Source of the DNA: a virus | DNA: 22,335 bases | Virus record (IMG/VR): IMGVR_UViG_3300022198_002109 | Location: 1-22,335 of that record | Strand: one strand, 5' to 3' | In this document: positions 1-22,335 of the stretch, in pieces | Layout of the letters: every line of letters starts with the position of its first letter | How positions within the stretch are numbered: the stretch's first letter is position 1 | Translations under genes and position numbers: made by a program | Notes under the pieces: generated by a model | The model's input: the letters and a program-made list of their open reading frames with translations, nothing else | Told to the model about the DNA's origin: nothing | The model's database searches: none

Positions 1-1
1 T

Positions 2-1396
2 ACTAAGGTTAAAAATTCAGTTACTTCATTTACTCAAGATGGTACTGGTGCCGTTGAAAGGGGTATGGAGGATAAGCTGAGGGAGGTTGTAAGTGTTAAA
101 GATTTTGGGGCTGATCCTGCCAACACAGGCTCAGAAAATTCAACTGCATTTCAGGCAGCGGTTGATAGCGGGGCAGCAACTGTATATATCCCTGCTGGTG
201 AATACACATTATCAGAGACATGGATTATACCGCAGTTTGTAAATATTAAGGGTGAAGGCCCAGAAAATACAACTCTGTTCTCAACAGCCACAGGTAGTGC
301 AATCACCAACACTGCTTACTGGTTTCATCAAGTTTTTGATGGTTTTTGTTTATCCCATAAGACCGCTACAGGTACAAATGACATAGACATGATTTATGCT
401 TTGTATGGTGCTAATAGTTGTATTTTTAGAAATCTCAGGCTACAAGCTAGGGAGGGTGTGACTAGAGATGGTTTAGTGGTAAGAGGCTACAACGGCTCTA
501 CAGCTAACAACAATCAATATAATAACTTATTTGAAAATATACGCACTCATGCAACAGATGGTACTGCTAATTACTCATCTGGTGAGATTGTTGGTACGGC
601 TCTGTGGTTATATGGTGAGGATATTAATGCAGCAAGAGCAAACTCCAATGTTGTTATTGGTGGAACCTATGATGGTTTTGAGACAGGTTTAGATGTAAAC
701 GGTAATGGTAACAGTTTTATATCCTTTACCATTAATGGCCCCGCTACAGGGTCAGCGATTATTTTTAGAGGGGATGGTACATTCAGCAATACTCTTTATT
801 CCATCTACTTTGATTCAGGTATTACTGGCAAACAGGTTGAGTTAATTCCTGCGGATGCTAACAGAATCCACATGGTTAGTATCATTGCTTGCCAAAACTG
901 TAAAACCCCTGCTGATGTATATCCAACAGGCACATTTGCTAGTTCTGCTGCATTTAATATAGAAGGTAGAAGCAATTTTATCGGCGGGTCAGCTCCAACA
1001 AGCTTGGCCTCGGCTGATATGTGCTCAGTTAGTCATTTTGAGGATGATGGGGTATTAAGCCTGATTGGTGGCACTGCGTATAACTCAGGCCGGACTATTG
1101 TATCTGGCTCTACATATGCGGGTGGTATCAATGCGGTATCTAACAATGGTGGCAACTCTGCCGTTATTAATGATGATGCTTCTGCTGAGTTTCGCGTAGT
1201 TAAAACACCAAACGGATCATCTTTCACTCGGCTTGTGTCTGTGGATAGCTCTGGAATAATCCGTTCAGATGGGCCAACTCAAACCACTGTTGGTGCTGCT
1301 GGTGGGGCCAGTGCTATACCGGCTACACCAACGGGATACCTTGAGTTTAAGATCGGTGCAACATCTTATGTTATCCCTTACTTTGCTAAAGCATAA
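2..1396 (+). CDS. Tailspike, pectate-lyase (beta-helix) fold, 5' end missing
   Basis: This is a receptor-binding or depolymerising tail protein that probably binds or cleaves a surface polysaccharide. The frame is open to the left edge. The 21 codons before the ATG at 65 already read like a phage tail protein (TSFTQDGTGAVER), so that methionine is internal and the true start lies upstream. The junction motif VVSVKDFGAD followed by AFQAAV and VYIPAGEYTL is the usual entry to the pectate-lyase superfamily beta-helix after an N-terminal particle-binding domain. The middle is rich in N, G, T and S, as in beta-helix rungs. The C-terminus (GYLEFKIG...YVIPYF) resembles the end motif of many phage tail proteins. 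About 464 residues are visible. Catalytic residues cannot be assigned by eye, so enzymatic activity is inference; the fold class is well supported. Confidence 0.85.
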   Translation, partial: TKVKNSVTSFTQDGTGAVERGMEDKLREVVSVKDFGADPANTGSENSTAFQAAVDSGAATVYIPAGEYTLSETWIIPQFVNIKGEGPENTTLFSTATGSAITNTAYWFHQVFDGFCLSHKTATGTNDIDMIYALYGANSCIFRNLRLQAREGVTRDGLVVRGYNGSTANNNQYNNLFENIRTHATDGTANYSSGEIVGTALWLYGEDINAARANSNVVIGGTYDGFETGLDVNGNGNSFISFTINGPATGSAIIFRGDGTFSNTLYSIYFDSGITGKQVELIPADANRIHMVSIIACQNCKTPADVYPTGTFASSAAFNIEGRSNFIGGSAPTSLASADMCSVSHFEDDGVLSLIGGTAYNSGRTIVSGSTYAGGINAVSNNGGNSAVINDDASAEFRVVKTPNGSSFTRLVSVDSSGIIRSDGPTQTTVGAAGGASAIPATPTGYLEFKIGATSYVIPYFAKA

Positions 1397-1463
1397 TAGC
1401 TATTCCAGTCCCAATAATAGGCTGTCTAATAGTGTCTAAGATAGACGAAATCAAGGAAGCTAA

Positions 1464-1499
1464 ATGACTGAAGAACGCAGAAACTACGATCAGACATGA
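1464..1499 (+). CDS. Possible micro-ORF, 11 codons, leader of the holin-terminase operon
   Basis: This tiny ORF (MTEERRNYDQT) has a good Shine-Dalgarno sequence, AAGGAAG at 1453-1459, four bases before its ATG. Its TGA stop overlaps the ATG of the next micro-ORF as ATGA, the same coupling used by the larger genes here. It is too short to judge by coding statistics. It may be a leader peptide, or the first half of a roughly 31-residue gene whose second half lies in the -1 frame. No function is proposed. Confidence 0.3.
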   Translation: MTEERRNYDQT

Positions 1500-1558
1500 A
1501 CAACCGTAGACAACAAGACCCAATAGTTCAAGAGCTTCTAATTCATTCTTTAAGGTAA
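1496..1558 (+). CDS. Possible micro-ORF, 20 codons, just upstream of the holin
   Basis: This short ORF (MNNRRQQDPIVQELLIHSLR) starts inside the stop of the preceding micro-ORF (ATGA) and ends four bases before the holin start. It has no Shine-Dalgarno sequence of its own, so it would depend on coupling or on a -1 shift from the upstream ORF. The translation is charged and helix-like at its end. It fills a stretch that otherwise has no gene. Whether it is made is unknown. Confidence 0.3.
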   Translation: MNNRRQQDPIVQELLIHSLR

Positions 1559-1562
1559 GCAT

Positions 1563-2000
1563 ATGTTTAGCTTCTTAGGAAAACTATTCGGCACAGATAA
1601 AGCAGGTGAGAAGCTTGTTGATGGTGCTACTTCTGCCATAGATAAAATCTGGTACACAGAAGAAGAGAAGGCAGAAGACGCAGCCCAAGCTAAACGAGAA
1701 GCTGCTGCGGTGTACATGAAATGGCTTGAGAGTACCTCTGGTTCTCGTCTAGCCCGTAGAATGATTGCCTTCATGGTAACATTCCCTTGGGCCTTAGCTA
1801 ACTTTGTAGCCATGATTCTTAGAGCATCAGCACCCTTCTTCCCTGAGAGTGCTGAAGTAATCAATGCATCTGCATCATCCCTAACTTCTGATGCATCTGA
1901 GAACAATACCTTAGTTGGTGTTGTGTTGCTCTTCTATTTTGGTGGGCCTGCTGCTGTAGATGCTAGTAAAGGTTTGGTTCAGAAGTGGGTTAATAAGTGA
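1563..2000 (+). CDS. Holin, 3-TM / gene-transfer-agent release type
   Basis: This 145-residue protein should form the inner-membrane lesion that times lysis. The pattern is that of the holin family first described for gene-transfer-agent release (Pfam 'Holin of 3TMs'). It has an amphipathic start (MFSFLGKLFG), a segment with TEEEK and YMKWLEST (31-58), then LARRMIAF leading into a hydrophobic helix at about 68-88. A second hydrophobic helix lies at about 116-133, with a basic tail after it. Only two strongly hydrophobic stretches are obvious, so the third membrane segment may be the N-terminal amphipathic helix. AAGG at 1552-1555 precedes the ATG. The stop overlaps the terminase start as GTGA. 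A holin beside the terminase matches T7, where lysis and packaging genes adjoin. No endolysin is adjacent. Confidence 0.8.
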   Translation: MFSFLGKLFGTDKAGEKLVDGATSAIDKIWYTEEEKAEDAAQAKREAAAVYMKWLESTSGSRLARRMIAFMVTFPWALANFVAMILRASAPFFPESAEVINASASSLTSDASENNTLVGVVLLFYFGGPAAVDASKGLVQKWVNK

Positions 2001-3526
2001 CAAAAGTTGACCAAATACGGGAAGCCGCTGAGCAAGATTTAAAAGTCTTTGCTAGACTTGTGAACCCTAAGCGAGTTTATGGAGGTATACACGATGAGGT
2101 GATGGACTGGTGGCAAGGTAGTAATTGTGCGGATAACACTCTACTATTACTGCCCCGTGCTCATATGAAGTCCCACCTTGCCGCTGTATATGCGGCGTGG
2201 TTAATCATTAAACACCCTTATATCACAATGTTGTACATTTCGGCAACATCTGATCTGGCTGAAAAACAACTATATGCCATTAAAAATATTCTGGATTCTA
2301 AGGCTGTGCGTAGGTATTGGCCACAACTGATTCATCCAGATGAAGGCAAGAGAGAAAAATGGTCTGCCACTGAAATCAGTGTAGACCACCCTGTTAGGAA
2401 AGAAGAGGGTGTGCGTGATCCAACTGTTAAAGCAGCAGGATTGACAACGAATATCACTGGTTTTCACACTGATTGGAATTTCTTAGATGATGTTGTTGTA
2501 CCTAATAATGCTTATACTGAAGATGGTAGAAGTAAAGTAGCTGCGATGTATTCTCAATTATCATCAATCAAAAATACGGATGCTAAAACTACGGTGGTTG
2601 GAACCCGTTACCATCCTAAAGACTTATATGACACCTTACTTAATACAAAAGTAGAGCTGTGGGCTGCTGGTGAGATGGTTTCTAAAGAGCCATTGTATGA
2701 TGTGTTACAGCGCGTGGTTGAGGAAGAGGGGGAATTCTTATGGCCTAAAACCACCAGATCAGACGGTAGGTCGTTTGGTTTTGATATGAATGAATTGGCT
2801 AAGAAAAAAGCGGAGTATATTGATATTACTCAATTCTATGCTCAGTATTATAACAACCCCAACGATCCGGGTAGTGCCAAGATTAACCCAACATTGTTTC
2901 AATATTATGATAAAAAATATATAGAACAACGTGAGGGTAGATGGTACTATAAAGACAACAGGTTGAATGTATTTGCTGCTATTGACTTTGCATACAGTTT
3001 AAATAAAAAGGCAGACTTTAGTGCAATTGTAGTTGTTGGGGTAGATCAATTTAATAATTTCTATGTTCTTGCCATTGATCGCTTTAAAACAGGCGACATT
3101 AAAGTGTACTATGATCATATTGTTGAACAACACACATTCTGGGGTTTTCGTAAGATGAGGGCTGAGGTCACAGCAGCGCAGGAAGTCATCGTAAATGATC
3201 TTAAGAACAATTATATTAAACCAAACGGACTGTCTTTGGTTATTGAGCCACATAGACCTACTAAACATGATGGTGCTAAAGAAGAGCGTATGATGAGTAC
3301 ACTGCAACCTAAATATTCTAATGGTCAAATGTGGCATTACCGAGGTGGTAATTGTCAACTTTTAGAAGAGGAACTAAAGATGGGCAAACCACCACATGAC
3401 GATATTAGTGATGCCTTGTCTAATGCTGTTGATGTAGCGGTAGCCCCTAGTAGACGCTACACATCATCATATACTAAAAAAGCTAATGTATACCACGGTC
3501 GTTTTGGTGGGGTAGCTGTAGCATGA
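1997..3526 (+). CDS. terL: Terminase large subunit (ATPase and nuclease)
   Basis: This is the packaging motor: it cuts concatemeric phage DNA and pumps it through the portal using ATP. Visible motifs in the 509-residue product are a Walker-A-like LLPRAHMKSH (51-60, K58/S59), a Walker-B-like WNFLDDVV (160-167) and a coupling motif VVGTRYHPKDLY (200-211). The C-terminal RNase-H-type nuclease shows AAIDFA (D330), an acidic centre RAEVTAAQE (389-396) and HDDISDALSNAVD (467-479). Length and motif layout fit T7 gp19-type terminases. The start is GTG at 1997, overlapping the holin stop; the next residues TKVDQIREAAEQDL look like a natural N-terminus. The end overlaps the portal start as ATGA. No small terminase subunit is recognisable in the window. 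Confidence 0.93.
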   Translation: MTKVDQIREAAEQDLKVFARLVNPKRVYGGIHDEVMDWWQGSNCADNTLLLLPRAHMKSHLAAVYAAWLIIKHPYITMLYISATSDLAEKQLYAIKNILDSKAVRRYWPQLIHPDEGKREKWSATEISVDHPVRKEEGVRDPTVKAAGLTTNITGFHTDWNFLDDVVVPNNAYTEDGRSKVAAMYSQLSSIKNTDAKTTVVGTRYHPKDLYDTLLNTKVELWAAGEMVSKEPLYDVLQRVVEEEGEFLWPKTTRSDGRSFGFDMNELAKKKAEYIDITQFYAQYYNNPNDPGSAKINPTLFQYYDKKYIEQREGRWYYKDNRLNVFAAIDFAYSLNKKADFSAIVVVGVDQFNNFYVLAIDRFKTGDIKVYYDHIVEQHTFWGFRKMRAEVTAAQEVIVNDLKNNYIKPNGLSLVIEPHRPTKHDGAKEERMMSTLQPKYSNGQMWHYRGGNCQLLEEELKMGKPPHDDISDALSNAVDVAVAPSRRYTSSYTKKANVYHGRFGGVAVA

Positions 3527-5280
3527 GTGGCTCCAACATTGAAGTTCGTGATGTCTTAAATCCTGATTATTTGGCTGAGGATGTTGCATACAAATACGAC
3601 CTATGGTCACGGAAAAGACTAGAAAAAGAGAAAGAGTGGAAAGAGTTACGCGATTATCTTTTTGCTGTTGATACAACTACAACTACGAACTCACAGCTTC
3701 CTTGGAAGAACAAAACAACTTTACCAAAATTGGCACAAATTAGGGATAATCTTCATGCTAATTACATGAGTGCGTTATTCCCTAATGATGATTGGTTGGT
3801 ATGGGAAGGTCATGAGACTCAAGGGGTCAATAAGGAGACCCGCCTTGCCATTCAAGAGTACATGAAAAACAAAACCAGATTGGGTGGGTTCCAGAAAGTA
3901 GTCTCACGCTTGTTGTATGATTACATTGACTACGGTAATGTCATTGCCGACGTTGAATACGTTCAAGAGAGACACTACGACCCGACCTCCGGAGAAGAAA
4001 TCGATGGATTTATTGGGCCACGAGCAATCCGTAGATCACCGTTCGATGTAGTATTCAACCCATTGGCACCTACCTTTGAGGATTCACCAAAAATCATCAG
4101 GGTTGTGTATACAATTGGTGAACTCCTTAAATCCGTAGAAGATAACCCTGAGAGTGGTTGGATGAAGGATGTTATTAAAGAACAGCTTAAAAATAGGAGT
4201 CGCATTCTCTCTGCCAATCAATCTGACATGGCCAAAAATCAAGGTTATATTGCAGATGGTTTTGATACTTTGCATGATTATTATGAGAGTGGTCATGTAG
4301 AGCTTCTGGAGTTCGTAGGGGATGTTGCAGACGAGCAAGGTGTTTTACACAGAAATCGTATGATTACTATCATGGATCGGTGTAAAGTTGTTCGTAATGA
4401 ACCTAACCCCGCATGGAACGGTAGTGATGGTATGTGCCACTGTGGGTGGCGTATGCGCCCTGACAATTTGTATGCAATGGGGCCACTGGATAACTTAGTT
4501 GGTATGCAATACCGCATTGATCACTTAGAAAATATCAAAGCAGATTTGTTTGATTTTATTGCCCACCCCCCACTAAAGATAAAAGGAAATGTGGAAGCAT
4601 TTGATTGGGAACCCTTTGCTCAGATTGAATGTGGTGATGACGGTGATGTTGAGGTATTAAAAGTAGATTCTACTGCTTTAGCGGCTGATACACAAATCGC
4701 GATTCTCGAACAACGAATGGAAGAAATGGCGGGTGCTCCCAGAGAAGCTATGGGTATTCGTTCTCCGGGTGAGAAAACCGCCTTTGAGGTGCAAAAACTA
4801 GATGACGCAGCTTCGAGGATTTTCCAAGAAAAGATACGCCAATTCGAGATTTTTATTCTAGAGCCTTTGCTTAACAACATGCTTGAAGTCGCAAGGCGCA
4901 ATCTAAATGCTAAGGACACAATTCGAGTCATTGACGATGATCTAGGTGCAGTCCAGTTTATGAACATCACCAAGGAGGACATAAGTGCAGCTGGGAAGTT
5001 GCGAGCTAAGGGTGCATCACACTTTGCTGCTAGGAACTTATTAGTTCAGAACCTCACCACTGTCTTCAATTCGAGATTGGGGGAAGTTATCATGCCTCAC
5101 GTTTCAGCCAAGGCATTGGCCAAGTTAGTCGAGGAAGCTTTTGGTTGGGAGCGTCATGCCCTTGTACGATTTAATGTACAGATCGCTGAGCAAGTAGAGC
5201 AACAACGTGCCATGAATGCTGGCCAAGACCAACTTGAGACTGAACAAATGCTTGCTGCTGAGGAGCCTAGAGGTATATGA
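3523..5280 (+). CDS. Portal (head-tail connector) protein
   Basis: This 585-residue protein should form the dodecameric ring at the capsid vertex through which DNA is packaged and released. The call rests on position directly after the terminase, on length, and on a sequence style common to podovirus portals. The N-terminal charged helix has WSRKRLEKEKEWKELRDYL, followed by a region with NLHANYMSALFPND. An asparagine/aspartate-rich wing (near DNLVGMQYRIDHLENIKADLF) precedes a C-terminal stem with VEVLKVDSTALAADTQIAILEQRMEEMAGAPREAMG and ends in a Q/E-rich helix. GEKTAFEVQKL is typical of portals near the stem. The start overlaps the terminase stop (ATGA), and its own stop overlaps the next gene in the same way. 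A strong family match is likely, but I cannot name the exact family. Confidence 0.87.
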   Translation: MSGSNIEVRDVLNPDYLAEDVAYKYDLWSRKRLEKEKEWKELRDYLFAVDTTTTTNSQLPWKNKTTLPKLAQIRDNLHANYMSALFPNDDWLVWEGHETQGVNKETRLAIQEYMKNKTRLGGFQKVVSRLLYDYIDYGNVIADVEYVQERHYDPTSGEEIDGFIGPRAIRRSPFDVVFNPLAPTFEDSPKIIRVVYTIGELLKSVEDNPESGWMKDVIKEQLKNRSRILSANQSDMAKNQGYIADGFDTLHDYYESGHVELLEFVGDVADEQGVLHRNRMITIMDRCKVVRNEPNPAWNGSDGMCHCGWRMRPDNLYAMGPLDNLVGMQYRIDHLENIKADLFDFIAHPPLKIKGNVEAFDWEPFAQIECGDDGDVEVLKVDSTALAADTQIAILEQRMEEMAGAPREAMGIRSPGEKTAFEVQKLDDAASRIFQEKIRQFEIFILEPLLNNMLEVARRNLNAKDTIRVIDDDLGAVQFMNITKEDISAAGKLRAKGASHFAARNLLVQNLTTVFNSRLGEVIMPHVSAKALAKLVEEAFGWERHALVRFNVQIAEQVEQQRAMNAGQDQLETEQMLAAEEPRGI

Positions 5281-5504
5281 GAACAACCTCACGTTTAGTC
5301 AAAAAAGTTGGGCACGAGCGTCTACTAGCCGTTAGAGATGTTTTACAAGATATACAAACCATTCTTAAGAATGATTTAGAAAGTTTGTACGCTGAGATGC
5401 TACAGGAACCATCAGGTGACTGGGTCTATCGGCAGGCAATGCTTATTGGCCAAGTGAAGGCCACTAAAAACCTTATTACTTTAATCAATACCGGAGATAA
5501 ATAA
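5277..5504 (+). CDS. Small helical protein between portal and scaffold, function unknown
   Basis: I do not recognise this 75-residue protein. It is predicted mostly helical, with a basic N-terminus (RTTSRLVKKVGHERLL) and acidic middle (ILKNDLESLYAEML). It has no membrane segment or cysteine. It sits between portal and scaffold, coupled to both by overlaps (ATGA at its start, TAATG at its end), so it is translated with the head assembly genes. A role in head assembly or packaging is inferred from position only. Its size could suit a small terminase-like or accessory head protein, but no DNA-binding motif is evident. That it is a real gene is well supported by the tight overlaps and good coding character. 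Confidence 0.72.
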   Translation: MRTTSRLVKKVGHERLLAVRDVLQDIQTILKNDLESLYAEMLQEPSGDWVYRQAMLIGQVKATKNLITLINTGDK

Positions 5505-6202
5505 TGTCTGACCAAGACAATCTATTTGAGAACCAGCAGCCTGTTGACCAACAAGCTGCGCCCGAGGCTGAGCCTCAAACACAAGTACAGGAAGATATGT
5601 TCAGCGACCTTCTGGACACAATCACTGATACTGAAGGCAATCCTAAGTACGCTGATGTTCCAACGGCTTTGAAAAGCCTCTCAGCATCTCAAGAGCACAT
5701 TCGCAAGTTAGAGCAAGAAGCTAAAGAGATGCGAGAGAAACTAGCAAAGCAAGAGGCTGCTGACGCTATTAAGGAGAAAGTGAAGTCTGCTCCTGCCGAG
5801 GCTTCAGTCAATGAGGAGTCGCTGTTTGATGTTGTAAACCGAGTCCTTGACGCCCGTACCAAACAACAAAAAGAGGAAGAAAATCTTTTGACTGTACATG
5901 CGAAATTCTCCGAAGTGTATGGTGAAAAAGCTTCCATTAGGATGAAGGAGCTAGCCGCTCAAAACGAAGTCTCGCTGCAGTTCTTGGAGCAAATGGCTAA
6001 AACCTCACCTAACGCCCTCTTTAAGTTGAGTGGTATTAGTTTAACCTCACGGACACCGAGCCATTCCCGTGGCTCAGTGAATACTGAGGCTCTTTCTCCC
6101 CAGCCTCCTGCTGAAAGACCAAAAAGCATCATGAACGGAGCAACAACTTCCGATGTTTTGGCCATGTGGCGATGGGCTGGTAGTCAAGTAACCAATCAGT
6201 AA
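5504..6202 (+). CDS. Capsid assembly scaffolding protein
   Basis: This internal scaffold is expected to guide coat assembly and then leave the prohead. The 232-residue product has the usual scaffold design: an acidic, Q/E-rich N-terminus (1-45), the motif GNPKYADVPTALKSLSASQ (45-63) found in many podovirus scaffolds, and a coiled coil with EHIRKLEQEAKEMREKLAKQEA at about 64-86. A helical segment follows at 103-165 (NVVNRVLDAR-like, LQFLEQM), then a low-complexity linker rich in S, P and R at 180-208. The end (SDVLAMWRW) is hydrophobic. It lies immediately before the major capsid gene, as in T7 (gene 9 before gene 10) and many phages. TAATG couples it to the upstream gene. Confidence 0.85.
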   Translation: MSDQDNLFENQQPVDQQAAPEAEPQTQVQEDMFSDLLDTITDTEGNPKYADVPTALKSLSASQEHIRKLEQEAKEMREKLAKQEAADAIKEKVKSAPAEASVNEESLFDVVNRVLDARTKQQKEEENLLTVHAKFSEVYGEKASIRMKELAAQNEVSLQFLEQMAKTSPNALFKLSGISLTSRTPSHSRGSVNTEALSPQPPAERPKSIMNGATTSDVLAMWRWAGSQVTNQ

Positions 6203-6205
6203 TAT

Positions 6206-6212
6206 AGGAGGG
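6206..6212 (+). promoter_or_regulatory. Strong ribosome binding site of the major capsid gene
   Basis: AGGAGGG lies four bases before the ATG at 6217 and is the best Shine-Dalgarno match in the window. Most other genes rely on stop/start overlap, whereas the major capsid gene has a free 14-base spacer and its own strong site. This fits the need for the highest protein yield. Confidence 0.85.
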
Positions 6213-6216
6213 ACAT

Positions 6217-7212
6217 ATGTCTCAAAACACTGGTAACACTACGGCTTTTATTGAAGCCGAGCAGTATTCCAAGTTTATTCTTGAGAATCTGCACGATGGT
6301 CTGCTTCCAGACCAATTCTCACGGGATGTGTCAGACTTTGGTACTGGTACAACGCTTAACATTAAGACCGTGGGCACAGCCACTCTGCAAGAAGTCTTTG
6401 AAGAGCAACCTCTGGCTTACAATGCAATTGACACTGGCACTGTGACTCTACGAATCACTGATTATGTAGGTGATGGTTGGTCTATCTCAGATGTATTGCG
6501 TCAAGATGGGTCTCAGATTGAGCAACTTCATGCTATGCGTGGTATGGAATCAACTCGTGCTCTTCAAGAGTACTTTGAGACCCGTGCTTTTGCTACTCTG
6601 AATGCTGGTCAAACTGCAGGAGCTATCAACTCGGTTAATGGTATCCCACACCGTTGGGTAGCTGATGCTGGTGGTGCTGCAGACGAAGGTAAAATCTCGT
6701 TGGATGATTTTCGTTTTATGAAGTACGCTTTTGATAAAGCGAATGCTCCAATGGCAGGACGGATCGCTGTAGTTGACCCTTCGGTTGAAGTAGCGATCAA
6801 CGGTCTCCTGACGGGAACTACCTCTATTGATTACAATCCACATTTCGAGGGCATTATCAATGAAGGTTTTGCTCGTGAACATGCTTTTGTGCGTAACATC
6901 TTTGGTTGGGATATTTATACCTCTAACCGTCTACCCCAAGGTCTGACTGAGGCTATCAACGCCAACGCTGCTGGTTTCAATGAAACTGACAGCTCTGTAG
7001 ACAGTGGTAATGGTGTGGCTAATATCTTCATGTGTGTATTGGATGATAACACTAAGCCGATGATGAGGGCTTGGCGTCAAGCACCAAAGACTGAAACTCG
7101 TCGTAACTTTGAACTCAAGCGTGATGAGTTCGATGTAACTGCCCGTTTTGGCCTTGGTCTCCAGCGTGTTGACACTCTGGGTATTGTTTTGACTGATGTT
7201 ACTAAGTTCTAA
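6217..7212 (+). CDS. Major capsid protein
   Basis: This is the main shell protein, 331 residues, very probably of HK97 fold. Supporting features are the position after the scaffold gene, the strong ribosome binding site and a codon choice cleaner than its neighbours. The sequence pattern is that of podovirus coat proteins: an N-terminal helix AEQYSKFILENL (14-25), PDQFSRDVSDFGTGTTLNI (31-49) and ITDYVGDGWSISDVLRQD (80-97). A middle part with GIPHRWVADAGGA precedes SLDDFRFMKYAFDKAN and RIAVVDPSVEVAINGLL. The C-terminus (RFGLGLQRVDTLGIVLTD) is the typical closing strand of this family. There is no sign of a programmed frameshift extension like T7 10A/10B, because the downstream gene has its own start. 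Confidence 0.9.
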   Translation: MSQNTGNTTAFIEAEQYSKFILENLHDGLLPDQFSRDVSDFGTGTTLNIKTVGTATLQEVFEEQPLAYNAIDTGTVTLRITDYVGDGWSISDVLRQDGSQIEQLHAMRGMESTRALQEYFETRAFATLNAGQTAGAINSVNGIPHRWVADAGGAADEGKISLDDFRFMKYAFDKANAPMAGRIAVVDPSVEVAINGLLTGTTSIDYNPHFEGIINEGFAREHAFVRNIFGWDIYTSNRLPQGLTEAINANAAGFNETDSSVDSGNGVANIFMCVLDDNTKPMMRAWRQAPKTETRRNFELKRDEFDVTARFGLGLQRVDTLGIVLTDVTKF

Positions 7213-17653: not shown

Positions 17654-19887
17654 TGGCCGAGCAGGGTATAATTGACTTGAGTCCTGAAGGAGTTACCAGC
17701 ACGGTTATCACTCCCCCAGCAACTGATTACATCAAACAAGGACTCGAAGCTGTCGGGAGTGCGTGGAGAGGTGCCACGGTAGGAGCAAAACAAACAGAGG
17801 CTAAAGAAGAAAGCAATAAGCTCATTGATAAGTTTACCCAAGCCTCCGAATACCAACAGCTCTCTCAGAGTCTAAGTGAGGCAGAAGTTGAAAAAAAAGA
17901 AATCTTATACTCATACAGTGACTCAGGCGATACTCCAGACTTCAGTGAAGATGATCAACTCAAACTAAAGCAAATAGAGGAACTTCAAAGCAAACTCTCA
18001 GACAAACGGAGTGCATTGATGCAAGGGCTGATGACTTCCTCAGAATTTAAACGAGAGGCTGAGGCAATGCTATATCAAATCTCGGCTACCACACCGGGTT
18101 TGGTTGATGAGATTGCTTCCACTATTCAGGGCATTGTTGGTTTTGACCCAAGGAGTCAAAATATAAAACTCGCAATGGAAGAAAGAGACCAGTATTTCAA
18201 AAATCAAGGTCAAGCAGCAGAAGCACAGCAAAAACTAATCGAGTATCAAGCCAAGAAAATTATTGATATGGGGTTTGGCGACTCGACTCGCCAGTCTGCT
18301 CGCGAGATTGTTGAAACCTATCTCGAGCAAGCTCAACAAGCACAAAGCGCTGATACTTTAGCCAATCAACTTCAGAATTTAGATCAAATAGGAGAGATTC
18401 AGAATACACAGCAGCTTAGAACCCACTTGCACAAAATGAGAACCTCACATGCTGCTACGGCTTGGAGTGCATTAAAGACGTTATCGTTGGTAGATATCAA
18501 TGGAGCAATGAAGAGTTTGTTTAAGATGTCTCCTAGTGATGTGTTAGCTTTGTCAGACGAACAAAAGCAAGCTTATTTAAATAGATTAAACACAGCTAGT
18601 ATTGAATTAGTACAACGATATGAAAACCACCAAGCACATTTCACATCAATAAATGAAGGTCAGGCATTTAAGCACCACATCGAGGCTGTTAAACAAATGC
18701 AAACGGACCTCATTGCGATCATACAGTCAACTGACATTGGTGCAATCACTGGCACTAGGTTACAGTATTACAAAGATGTAAATGATATTGCTTTGGAGTT
18801 AGAAGCCTCGCAGCTTCTTGGTAAGCATCCAAACCTGTTAACAATAGTGACGATGGCAGATAGGTTTGGGCTAAAGGATTTATTGGTGGACGCTGCTCAA
18901 CAAGGTGCTACACTTGATATTCTATCAGGTATCCTGCTCGGGAGTGGTGATGTTGATTACGGAGACCCTGATGCTATGTCCACAGGGGTGAGAGAGTTTG
19001 TGGTTTCTGGGCAAATAGAGTGGCTTAAGAAGGCCAGAGATTGGGCGGATCGGAATGGCGTTGAGGACTTAACCCCTGAGGAAGCCAAGGGCTTAGGAAA
19101 TGTTCTTAAGAATGTAATGAGACAACCTATAACCTCATTGGGTTCAAATGAGCCTCTGAGGTGGGAGGTGTTAGAAACGCTCTCTAACAAAAAACTTATG
19201 GATAATATTAAGAATAATCAACCTCGCTTATGGGCGATAATTGAGGGTCATAAAGATACATACCTCGGAACACAGATTAACTCTGTGCTTGCTCCTGATC
19301 TCCAAGCCCCGGTTATTAATCAATTTGGGGGTCAGTCCATACGATTGCTGACTGGTGCCTATCCTAGTATTGTAACAAAGGATGGCAAAGAGTATTTAAT
19401 GTTTAATGACACTGAATTCTCTAAACAACCAACATGGAACTGGAATCCAACAATGATTAGGTACATGCCTAACTACGTTAGGAAACTCAATGCCAGTCCC
19501 ACAGCTAGACGTAGGTTCCTAAATACAGCTAAAGTATATGCTAATACTTATGATATGCCACTTGACACAGCAGTACAAGAGATCGCAAAGATGGTTGGGT
19601 TTGCAACTGGTCCATATAAAGACGAAGGCAATACTGAGGCACCAGTAGAGGAATTGCGTGAGGCACCACAACCATCAAAGCCACAAAAGCAACCAGAAAA
19701 TAAAACTCCTAGTGAGGCACAAGCAGGGACGCAAGACCAGCCACTAACTCGTGAGGAGATTGAGGCTGCACGTGCTTTCTGGGAGCAACATAAAGACAGT
19801 CAAGATCAAGATGCTGCAACTGTTGTGATGGAATTTTTTCGTAAAAGACTTAACCCTAAGGCTCAACAACATGAGGATACACCCTAA
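17653..19887 (+). CDS. Internal virion / ejection protein (T7 gp15-like position)
   Basis: This 744-residue, mostly helical protein is expected to be virion-associated and, from its place between the giant protein and the histone-like protein, probably ejected with the DNA. It has long charged helices (EAEVEKKEILYSY, KLKQIEELQSKLSDKR at about 75-115; EQAQQAQSADTLANQLQNLDQIG at about 220-245). Regions with PSDVLALSDEQKQAYLNRL (about 295-315) and WLKKARDWADRNGVEDLTPEEAKGLG (about 460-485) follow. Near 545-600 is a domain with APVINQFGGQSIRLLTGAYP. A P/Q/E-rich linker (about 660-705) separates a final helix (EEIEAARAFWEQHKDS) and a C-terminal MEFFRKRLNP. No enzyme motif is recognised. The stop overlaps the next start (TAATG). 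Confidence 0.75.
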   Translation: MAEQGIIDLSPEGVTSTVITPPATDYIKQGLEAVGSAWRGATVGAKQTEAKEESNKLIDKFTQASEYQQLSQSLSEAEVEKKEILYSYSDSGDTPDFSEDDQLKLKQIEELQSKLSDKRSALMQGLMTSSEFKREAEAMLYQISATTPGLVDEIASTIQGIVGFDPRSQNIKLAMEERDQYFKNQGQAAEAQQKLIEYQAKKIIDMGFGDSTRQSAREIVETYLEQAQQAQSADTLANQLQNLDQIGEIQNTQQLRTHLHKMRTSHAATAWSALKTLSLVDINGAMKSLFKMSPSDVLALSDEQKQAYLNRLNTASIELVQRYENHQAHFTSINEGQAFKHHIEAVKQMQTDLIAIIQSTDIGAITGTRLQYYKDVNDIALELEASQLLGKHPNLLTIVTMADRFGLKDLLVDAAQQGATLDILSGILLGSGDVDYGDPDAMSTGVREFVVSGQIEWLKKARDWADRNGVEDLTPEEAKGLGNVLKNVMRQPITSLGSNEPLRWEVLETLSNKKLMDNIKNNQPRLWAIIEGHKDTYLGTQINSVLAPDLQAPVINQFGGQSIRLLTGAYPSIVTKDGKEYLMFNDTEFSKQPTWNWNPTMIRYMPNYVRKLNASPTARRRFLNTAKVYANTYDMPLDTAVQEIAKMVGFATGPYKDEGNTEAPVEELREAPQPSKPQKQPENKTPSEAQAGTQDQPLTREEIEAARAFWEQHKDSQDQDAATVVMEFFRKRLNPKAQQHEDTP

Positions 19888-20321
19888 TGACTATACCTGC
19901 ACCAGCGTTTGACCCAGAACGCAAAACCAAAGCAAAGAAAACGGTGGTTAAAAAAGCCCCTACTAAGAAAGCAGCACCTAAGAAGAAAGTGGCTACTAAG
20001 AAAGCCACTACTAAAAAGATGCAAACCAAAAAGGCAGCGGTGAAGAGAGCTGCGCCAAAAGCTACCACCAACACTTCTGAATTGAGTACCAAAGATGTCG
20101 TCTCTGGAGCAAAGAAAGCTAGTAAAGTAAGTAAGGTTCTTAAGGCCACTCCTGCTGGCGTAGTCGGAGCTATCTCTTATGAAGTGGGTAAAGCCCTAGG
20201 CTCGTATGCTGTGAGCAAGATGTACAAACCTAACATTGGGAAAAGTGGTATCACTTCTCCAGATAAAAAGACCAGAGCCTTGTCCGAAGTATATCAAAAA
20301 GCTCGTAGAAAGGTTAAATGA
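19887..20321 (+). CDS. Histone-like, Lys/Ala-rich (KKA repeat) protein
   Basis: This 144-residue, strongly basic protein could bind DNA or RNA, or neutralise DNA in the virion. Residues 12-60 are an H1/AlgP-like tract of imperfect KKA/TKK/PKK units (nucleotides 19920-20066), probably disordered. Residues 61-75 (TTNTSELSTKDVVSG) are a polar hinge. Residues 76-112 hold a basic-hydrophobic segment with KATPAGVVGAISYEVGKALGSYAVSKMY, which could be a membrane-active or amphipathic helix. The end (SEVYQKARRKVK) is basic again. It is coupled to the ejection-protein gene by TAATG and to the collagen-like gene by ATGA, so it belongs to the late virion set. Function is inferred from composition; similar repeats occur in histone H1 and in bacterial regulators, where charge and not homology drives the resemblance. 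Confidence 0.8.
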   Translation: MTIPAPAFDPERKTKAKKTVVKKAPTKKAAPKKKVATKKATTKKMQTKKAAVKRAAPKATTNTSELSTKDVVSGAKKASKVSKVLKATPAGVVGAISYEVGKALGSYAVSKMYKPNIGKSGITSPDKKTRALSEVYQKARRKVK

Positions 20322-20950
20322 TATCGTCTACTTACCAATCTCTAGTCAGGCGCACCTTAGAACTCAAAGCACAACGCTTGAGGGATGAGCGTCTAAGAGG
20401 ACCACAAGGAATACAGGGACCACCGGGGCCAAAAGGAGACCAAGGTTTACAAGGCCAATCAGGCAAGGATGGGAGAGATGGCAAGGATGGCAAGGACGGT
20501 AGGGATGGTATTGATGGGACAGCCGGGAGAGATGGCAAGGACGGGCGTGATGGTATTGATGGAAAAGATGGTCCAATTGGACCCATGCCTAAACATGAAT
20601 CCAGAGGGGATGCCATCAGGTTTGAGCAATCTGAGGGTGTTTGGGGTAAGTGGGTTAGGTTAGGGGGACACTCCACTGGAGGAGGGATAGGTAAGGACTC
20701 CGTGTTACAACTGATTGAAAGTTATTTAGAGATAGGTATGTCACAATATAATAAACTTATTGATACTGTGGGTACTATTAAGTACATAGGTGAGTCACTG
20801 CCCGGAACTGCATCTTCTAGTGCCTCTTGGAGGATTAAGAAGGTTGACCTCACTGATGAGGATATTGAAATCACTTGGGCAGATGGTACTTCTGAATTTA
20901 CTAAAGTATGGGATGATAGAGCTAGTTATGATTACACAGTTTCAGCATAA
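20318..20950 (+). CDS. Collagen-like fibre protein with phage C-terminal domain
   Basis: This 210-residue fibre probably forms a trimeric, collagen-like shaft. Residues 28-90 are 21 uninterrupted Gly-X-Y triplets, first proline/glutamine-rich (GPQ GIQ GPP GPK), then charged (GKD/GRD/GID), and closed by GPI GPM. The N-terminal 27 residues are basic and helix-like (LVRRTLELKAQRLRDERL) and may trimerise or attach the fibre. A linker with VWGKWVRLGG precedes a helical region (DSVLQLIESYLEIGMSQYNKLIDT). The C-terminal domain (about 153-206: IKYIGESLPG, WRIKKVDLTDEDIEITWADG, FTKVWDDRASYDY) matches a small domain seen at the end of many phage and prophage fibre proteins. The gene is coupled to the histone-like gene (ATGA). 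An adhesion role is inferred. Confidence 0.85.
   Translation: MISSTYQSLVRRTLELKAQRLRDERLRGPQGIQGPPGPKGDQGLQGQSGKDGRDGKDGKDGRDGIDGTAGRDGKDGRDGIDGKDGPIGPMPKHESRGDAIRFEQSEGVWGKWVRLGGHSTGGGIGKDSVLQLIESYLEIGMSQYNKLIDTVGTIKYIGESLPGTASSSASWRIKKVDLTDEDIEITWADGTSEFTKVWDDRASYDYTVSA
20489..20560 (+). repeat. Direct repeat of 27 bases inside the collagen tract
   Basis: Bases 20489-20515 and 20534-20560 are near-identical copies (beginning GGCAAGGAC and ending GATGGTATTGAT), coding for GKD GRD GID twice, with an 18-base spacer between. Such repeats allow the number of Gly-X-Y triplets to change by slippage or recombination, so shaft length may vary between related phages. Confidence 0.75.
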
Positions 20951-21053
20951 AACTATTCTTAAGAACAGAAAAGAAAATAAAACCAAGAAAGTGAGGCCTC
21001 GGCGTATGCGTATTGAAGGGGTCCCGCTTGACTATGCGCGGGACGGTGAGTGA
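20928..21053 (+). CDS. Small basic ORF, 41 residues, function unknown
   Basis: This ORF overlaps the collagen-like gene by 23 bases and ends one base into the ATG of the next ORF (TGATG), so it fits the coupled style of the operon. The product is basic in its first half (residues include KTILKNRKENKTKKVRPRR) and ends MRIEGVPLDYARDGE. There is no strong ribosome binding site before the ATG at 20928. Earlier in-frame ATGs lie inside the collagen-like gene. Codon style changes about halfway: AT-rich before about 20,990 and GC-rich after it. I do not recognise it. It may be a real small virion gene, or the stitched junction of two different sources. Confidence 0.5.
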   Translation: MITQFQHKTILKNRKENKTKKVRPRRMRIEGVPLDYARDGE

Positions 21054-22335
21054 TGGCTCACATCGTAGCAACAACACCATCAGACACAGGCGGGAGTGGA
21101 TCAAATTCACTGACTGTTGACCTCGGCACGTTTGATGCTGGCGATATTTTAATAATTGCGCTATCAACATATTTCTGCACGACTGGTTGGGTAGAGTCTG
21201 GAACATCGCAGTGGACGGCACAGCAAAGCACAACTAACCCAGGGTCTGCCACGTTTACAAGGGTGATGACCGGCGGGGAGTCTGACCCGACGTTTACATA
21301 TACAGGCACCGCTTATCAGGCACAGGCCGAGGTCACTCGGATCACCGGGGGAGGCGTCATTATTACCTCCGCCCTCAGCAATCAACAGGTTGCGAAGCCC
21401 GTGTGGGCTTCTGTCAACACTACAGGTTACCCTAATGCGTTAATTCTAGGTATCGCGTTCACCCGGGATTCCTACCGCTCCGGGGAGCATTCACCCGAGG
21501 TAAAGGATTTTATCAAGGCGCGGGTGTCAAGCACCGGGTCAATCGACGGTGCCTATTTCCACCAGCAAACCCCAACTGTCGCCACACCAACCCCCACGAT
21601 CTACAGACCGCATAGCTCAACTTACAGCGGTTTTTTCATGGCCTGTCACACAATCGCGATCAGCGACGGTGCGGGCGAGGGCAGCGAGGGGCAGGTCAAG
21701 ACAACTTCGCCGCCCGCTGAACTGATCTGTATGGCGGCGTTCGGGAACGTACAGTCTAACCCGACAACATTGGTGCCGGATGTAGACACAATAAATACTG
21801 TTTACGAGAGTGATGGCGTTACTAGTGCTTTTTACAACAAGTACATATCTACCCCGCAAGCACATTTTTTTACGGTCAATACCTCGGGGGGATACAACAA
21901 GGTTGTTTGTAAAGCCTTGGACCTGACCGACACTCAAGACTTATCGGGTGAGGTTATCAGCATCTCGTCAGCCGCAGCAGGGGCTAGCTACGCGGTAGCA
22001 ACCGACACAAACGGCGGGCGATATCTCGGTATTATCACCGGCTCTGATGCGGGCGCGAAAATATGGAAAACAGACGCTGCCGACACAAATGTTAACCCAA
22101 AAAAAGGGTTGTTTCCGTACATCATCGATGTGAGCAACGGCGCTGGCGCGGAGATCAAAGGTGCGCTTGACTTAACATCCCCGACGAAGCTATTTCTAGG
22201 CGTGGTTGCGACGGGTACTACTATTACGTCATGGCGTAGCGTCTGGAAGCACAATCTAAAAATAATGGTCGGCGGGTCATCAGCAACGCCGCTCGATTTT
22301 AATGACATCGTAAAACATGCTGAGACATCATCGTT
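21053..22335 (+). CDS. Putative receptor-binding / tail protein, runs off the right edge, GC-rich
   Basis: From the ATG at 21053 the frame is open without a stop to the window end (427 full codons), so the gene is incomplete here. It overlaps the preceding stop (TGATG). The product is rich in G, A, S and T and predicted beta-rich. Residues 14-95 (SGSNSLTVDLGTFDAGDILIIALS ... SATFTRVMTGGESDPTFTYTGTAYQAQAEVTRITGG) look like a small phage surface-protein domain with alternating strands. Residues 125-175 hold GYPNALILGIAFTRDSYRSG. From about 285 a second domain begins (LDLTDTQDLSG ... FLGVVATGTTITSWRSVWKHNLKIMVGG). No enzyme motif is seen. Position beside the collagen-like fibre supports a host-contact role. 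Codon use is unlike its neighbours: many GCG, ACG, CCG, GGC and GGG codons, with sampled lines at 45-72% G+C. Horizontal acquisition is likely. Confidence 0.7.
   Translation, partial: MAHIVATTPSDTGGSGSNSLTVDLGTFDAGDILIIALSTYFCTTGWVESGTSQWTAQQSTTNPGSATFTRVMTGGESDPTFTYTGTAYQAQAEVTRITGGGVIITSALSNQQVAKPVWASVNTTGYPNALILGIAFTRDSYRSGEHSPEVKDFIKARVSSTGSIDGAYFHQQTPTVATPTPTIYRPHSSTYSGFFMACHTIAISDGAGEGSEGQVKTTSPPAELICMAAFGNVQSNPTTLVPDVDTINTVYESDGVTSAFYNKYISTPQAHFFTVNTSGGYNKVVCKALDLTDTQDLSGEVISISSAAAGASYAVATDTNGGRYLGIITGSDAGAKIWKTDAADTNVNPKKGLFPYIIDVSNGAGAEIKGALDLTSPTKLFLGVVATGTTITSWRSVWKHNLKIMVGGSSATPLDFNDIVKHAETSS

Follow-up and report, generated by a model that had tools for sequence, protein, structure and literature searches.

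The last open reading frame (ORF) of the window, P0001, is foreign in base composition and codon usage to the rest of the DNA. The composition switches sharply just ahead of it, behind a collagen-like gene and at the place where related viruses hold their fibre module. Natural exchange of a fibre module is favoured here over an assembly chimera, with a probability of about 0.6; this figure, like the grading of the alternatives, is a judgement and not computed odds. P0001 would be the first, or the first surviving, gene of a fibre module that a Zobellviridae-type podophage took in through recombination, the donor being a phage whose base composition differs.

The window and its phage type

The window is the whole IMG/VR record, a linear virus fragment of 22,335 bp. 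From left to right, the plus strand encodes the end of a pectate-lyase-type tailspike, a small gene, the terminase large subunit (TerL), portal, scaffold, capsid and tube proteins, followed by a 1633-aa internal virion protein, a 744-aa second large protein, a lysine-rich protein, the collagen-like protein and P0001. The order TerL, portal, scaffold, capsid, tube A, tube B and two large ejection proteins is the same in members of the Zobellviridae type, and the TerL is 51–59% similar to that of seven such members. This gene order and similarity place the window with Zobellviridae such as MEP401 and ICP2, and the window is the structural module of a podophage of this type. DNA nearly identical to the window was not present in the phage collection. 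The GTDB relatives of the TerL all sit within metagenome bins and therefore give no reliable word on hosts.

The features around the right end are the following.

20318 to 20950, plus strand: collagen-like protein of 210 aa (PF01391, E 8e-10; tail-fibre PHROGs), native in composition, marking the edge of the fibre module
20951 to 21052: gap of 102 bp between the collagen-like gene and P0001, AT- and purine-rich in its first part (20951–20993) and GC-rich in its second
20988 to 21018: support interval of the composition switch from the change-point analysis, best estimate 20995
21006 to 21053, plus strand: MRIEGVPLDYARDGE followed by a stop, perhaps a short ORF or the last part of a truncated gene, whose TGA overlaps the ATG of P0001 (TGATG)
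21053 to 22333, plus strand: P0001, 427 aa, truncated on its 3′ side where the contig stops; fibre-like, with no known relatives

Between the genes of the second large internal protein and the collagen-like protein lies a gene for a 144-aa protein (19887–20321, plus strand), the first half of which is lysine- and alanine-rich and histone-H1-like, with weak sub-threshold Pfam matches only; no relatives of this protein were found. Both ends of the window, 1 and 22335, fall inside genes of the host-contact type, the tailspike on the left and the fibre-like ORF on the right, which is what one would see if assemblies break where such genes vary between strains.

Composition of the last open reading frame

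P0001 starts at the ATG at 21053, with an in-frame GTG at 21050, and stays open up to the contig end, so that it is unfinished in the window as the original prediction had described. At this G+C, an open frame of 427 codons would arise by chance with a probability of about 6e-9, and P0001 is therefore taken as a real ORF. Windows of the same size over the rest of the contig average 0.427 G+C (sd 0.022, maximum 0.481), whereas P0001 has 0.523. The GC3 reaches 0.56, compared with 0.30–0.44 in all 17 other genes, and the CpG odds ratio is 1.12 versus 0.59 elsewhere in the contig. The log-likelihood of its codons, given the other genes, corresponds to z = -10.8, while the other genes tested range from -2.5 to +2.3. 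The codon usage is foreign along the whole ORF, from the first codon. P0001 thus shows the signature by which horizontal acquisition was judged, a base composition and a codon usage that both depart from those of the genome.

These values bear out the earlier claim that the last ORF is compositionally unlike the rest, and the per-gene comparison of G+C and codon usage leaves P0001 as the sole outlier in GC3 and codon z within the contig. Three details of that claim need correction. The other genes lie at 38–51% G+C and not at the 37–40% taken from sampled lines of the ejection genes. In 60-base frames P0001 ranges over 0.37–0.68, compared with the 45–72% of the sampled lines. GCG, to which the alanine codons were said to switch from GCT, is the commonest of the 42 alanine codons but forms no majority (GCT 10, GCC 9, GCA 8, GCG 15). 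The reading of the ORF as foreign is reasonable. An origin of P0001 by internal duplication of two halves was rejected, as the score of 44 between the halves is near that of shuffled sequences (37.6 ± 6.6).

The joint

The switch had been placed at the start of the ORF. It is real, but the change-point analysis, which used a dinucleotide model on the stretch from 12 kb to the contig end, puts it at about 20995, behind the last base of the collagen-like gene (20950) but ahead of the P0001 start codon, which means that the foreign stretch starts 58 bp ahead of the gene. In steps of 150 bp, the CpG odds are 0.00–0.38 before the switch and 0.8–1.7 after it. The same gap measures 6–11 bp in relatives, versus 102 bp in the window. 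A scan of IMG/VR with a DNA pattern for the upstream peptide MRIEGVPLDYARDGE gave no match.

Only 1.34 kb separate the switch from the end of the contig, which is metagenomic, and this makes an assembly chimera a live alternative, one that is absent from the original prediction. The last ~1.34 kb would then come from another virus or cell of the same sample, joined at about 20995 beside an A/G-rich low-complexity stretch. The abrupt change of all composition measures near the contig end speaks for such a join, as do the overlong gap, the low-complexity stretch just before it and the possible tail of another gene with which the foreign side opens. That the foreign DNA begins before P0001, perhaps with the last part of a truncated gene, likewise counts against the exchange of a fibre module.

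Fibre module behind the collagen-like gene in relatives

Two scans of IMG/VR with alignments of the TerL and the tube-B protein yielded about 158 related loci. Relatives of the collagen-like protein of the window occur in L091, L126 and L167, and three relatives, G003, L126 (G047) and L167 (G067), have their own related collagen-like gene in this position. In these three, the collagen-like gene is followed after 6–11 bp by a gene of ~140 aa and then by more genes of the fibre type; in G003 the ~140-aa product belongs by its match to PF23140, "Podophage GP4 fiber I protein gp80". The presence of a fibre module after the collagen-like gene in three relatives makes the place of P0001 the entry of the fibre module. 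The fibre module and P0001 both sit after a related collagen-like gene. The relatives differ from the window in their first gene of ~140 aa, in the lack of a P0001 relative and in a composition that stays steady after the collagen-like gene. The absence of a switch in three relatives of the same layout counts against the exchange. In its favour is the sharpness of a switch that leaves the genes on both sides intact and coincides with the border of the fibre module in this family; the codon usage, foreign throughout P0001, and the tailspike-like residue make-up point the same way. The same position argues against a chimera, as a random join would rarely fall between intact genes exactly where relatives hold the fibre module and also bring in a fibre-like protein.

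Searches for relatives and the host-contact role

The profile searches by which the family of P0001 was to be recognised did not deliver one: Pfam, PHROGs and NCBIfam, searched with the whole protein and in pieces up to E 10, contained no relative, and only two sub-threshold PHROG matches appeared (E 0.32 and 1.6). There was no match among the PDB sequences. No relative was found by tblastn at E 10, with the whole protein and two parts, in 50,697 phages, nor among 72,556 plasmids, nor in 754 genomes of two bacterial classes and 8 metagenome bins. Three sub-threshold matches in Arthrobacter phages, spanning 29–52 residues, were taken as chance. P0001 is absent from 83 related virus records, and IMG/VR and GTDB, scanned with peptide patterns that can reach no further than close relatives, gave nothing. 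None of these searches pointed to a donor lineage. AlphaFold2 models of the whole fragment and of residues 1–210, predicted without relatives, had a pLDDT of about 31 and were unusable. That no related virus carries the gene counts against the exchange of a fibre module and in favour of a chimera.

The family, PDB and phage searches thus gave P0001 no sequence match to any fibre, spike or receptor-binding family, while the place in the fibre module, with G003, L126 and L167 as the reference, is that of a fibre gene. The residue make-up is rich in Ser, Thr and Gly and spike-like: Ser+Thr+Gly+Asn amount to 0.38 in P0001 versus 0.39 in the tailspike of the window, and Lys+Arg+Asp+Glu to 0.14 versus 0.15. 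A host-contact role fits this gene place and make-up, and the P0001 product may be a beta-rich part of the tail-fibre complex which would touch the host surface. The proposal of a foreign receptor-binding protein behind the collagen-like fibre accordingly holds for the composition, the place and the fibre-like residues, and not for receptor binding itself, for which no match or homologue was found. The further statement that a receptor-binding protein was swapped in and could change the host range goes beyond the evidence; that P0001 is in the virion, that it binds a host structure and that host range changes through it can only be inferred. P0001 could also be the founder of an undescribed host-contact protein family, on a fibre module which passes from phage to phage across differences in base composition and inserts immediately after the collagen-like linker gene, but this extended reading is doubtful.

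Composition steps in related records

As a control, the GC3 excess over the core genes, and also CpG, was surveyed in 912 genes of at least 200 aa from 113 related records, with mechanically called ORFs and some overlapping loci. Best-split scores, which mostly picked up strand switches in the other records, were dropped. The excess of P0001, +0.20, is the second-largest of the 912 genes. The largest belongs to the P22-type coat gene of L014 (IMGVR_UViG_3300005613_000282), and ranks three to five are taken by a gene of L018 with a fibre-like start, a left-end tail protein of L088 and the ctOsX528 tail fibre. In the locus of L088 (1–2475), the left-end tail genes have 46–60% G+C, while the core genes on their right have about 42%; this is a further composition step at fibre-type genes in a relative, either natural or chimeric.

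In L014, the P22-type genes for scaffold, coat (PF11651, E 7e-88) and adaptor have a GC3 of 0.70–0.76 (locus 1–6727), and beyond a G+C step at ~6727 the contig continues with Zobellvirid TerL, portal, capsid and tube genes. Its two unrelated capsid gene sets mark it as very probably an assembly chimera, so that the sole GC3 excess above that of P0001 among the relatives lies in a contig of this kind, which again favours a chimera in the window. The tail fibre of ctOsX528 (L006, MW202697.1, 31411–34488, minus strand) has a GC3 of 0.16 in the first 100 aa, then 0.26–0.36, and about 0.5 from residue ~600, over its last 400 residues. This genome is complete and circular, and such a mosaic fibre indicates that foreign fibre ends arise naturally too, a precedent within the family for the exchange.

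The balance of the explanations

Chimeras are known from viral metagenomes, where they stay below 5% of contigs of at least 10 kb in simulations (PMC5610896). The assembly chimera is regarded here as somewhat unlikely. Very improbable is an old native gene, long in the lineage and shaped by selection on a repetitive surface protein rich in small residues rather than by recent transfer: tail or fibre-like genes do account for several of the highest GC3 excesses among relatives, but the tailspike of the window has the same residue make-up with a GC3 of 0.30 and ordinary codon use, the excess lies in synonymous sites and starts in the gap ahead of the gene, and fibre genes in the closest layouts are unshifted.

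Under the exchange of a fibre module, the joint would lie in the short gap behind the collagen-like linker gene, so that the virion core and ejection proteins would stay native and the exposed proteins beyond would be replaced. P0001 lacks a native N-terminal anchor, unlike the ctOsX528 fibre, and the contig ends before a second joint becomes visible; both points count against this reading. If the joint is present in a real virus, as is inferred, the collagen-like gene would be a defined exchange point at which core and ejection genes are kept and fibre genes replaced, and the comparison of core-gene and fibre-gene composition could indicate different host histories of uncultured podophages. 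If it is artificial, composition islands at the contig ends of metagenomic phages should not be read as host-range swaps unless reads support them.

Comparison with known systems

Fibre mosaicism and chimeric contigs are both well known, and the case of P0001 is ordinary in kind. L014 resembles the window in that Zobellvirid structural genes are joined to GC-richer DNA near fibre genes; its foreign side holds a second, unrelated capsid set, whereas that of the window holds one ORF with no assignable family. The ctOsX528 tail fibre belongs to the same phage type and has strongly raised GC3 and CpG, as P0001 does, but it lies upstream of the terminase in a complete genome and has an N-terminus of native composition, while P0001 is foreign from the first codon and lies at a contig end. 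Whole host-recognition modules are exchanged between distant marine phage families (PMC10579305). An example is given by the Alteromonas phages A5, V22 and P24, in which the shared module is known by homology between isolated phages, whereas for P0001 the evidence is its composition and place; the likeness is that the exposed fibre genes differ in origin from the adjoining core virion genes.
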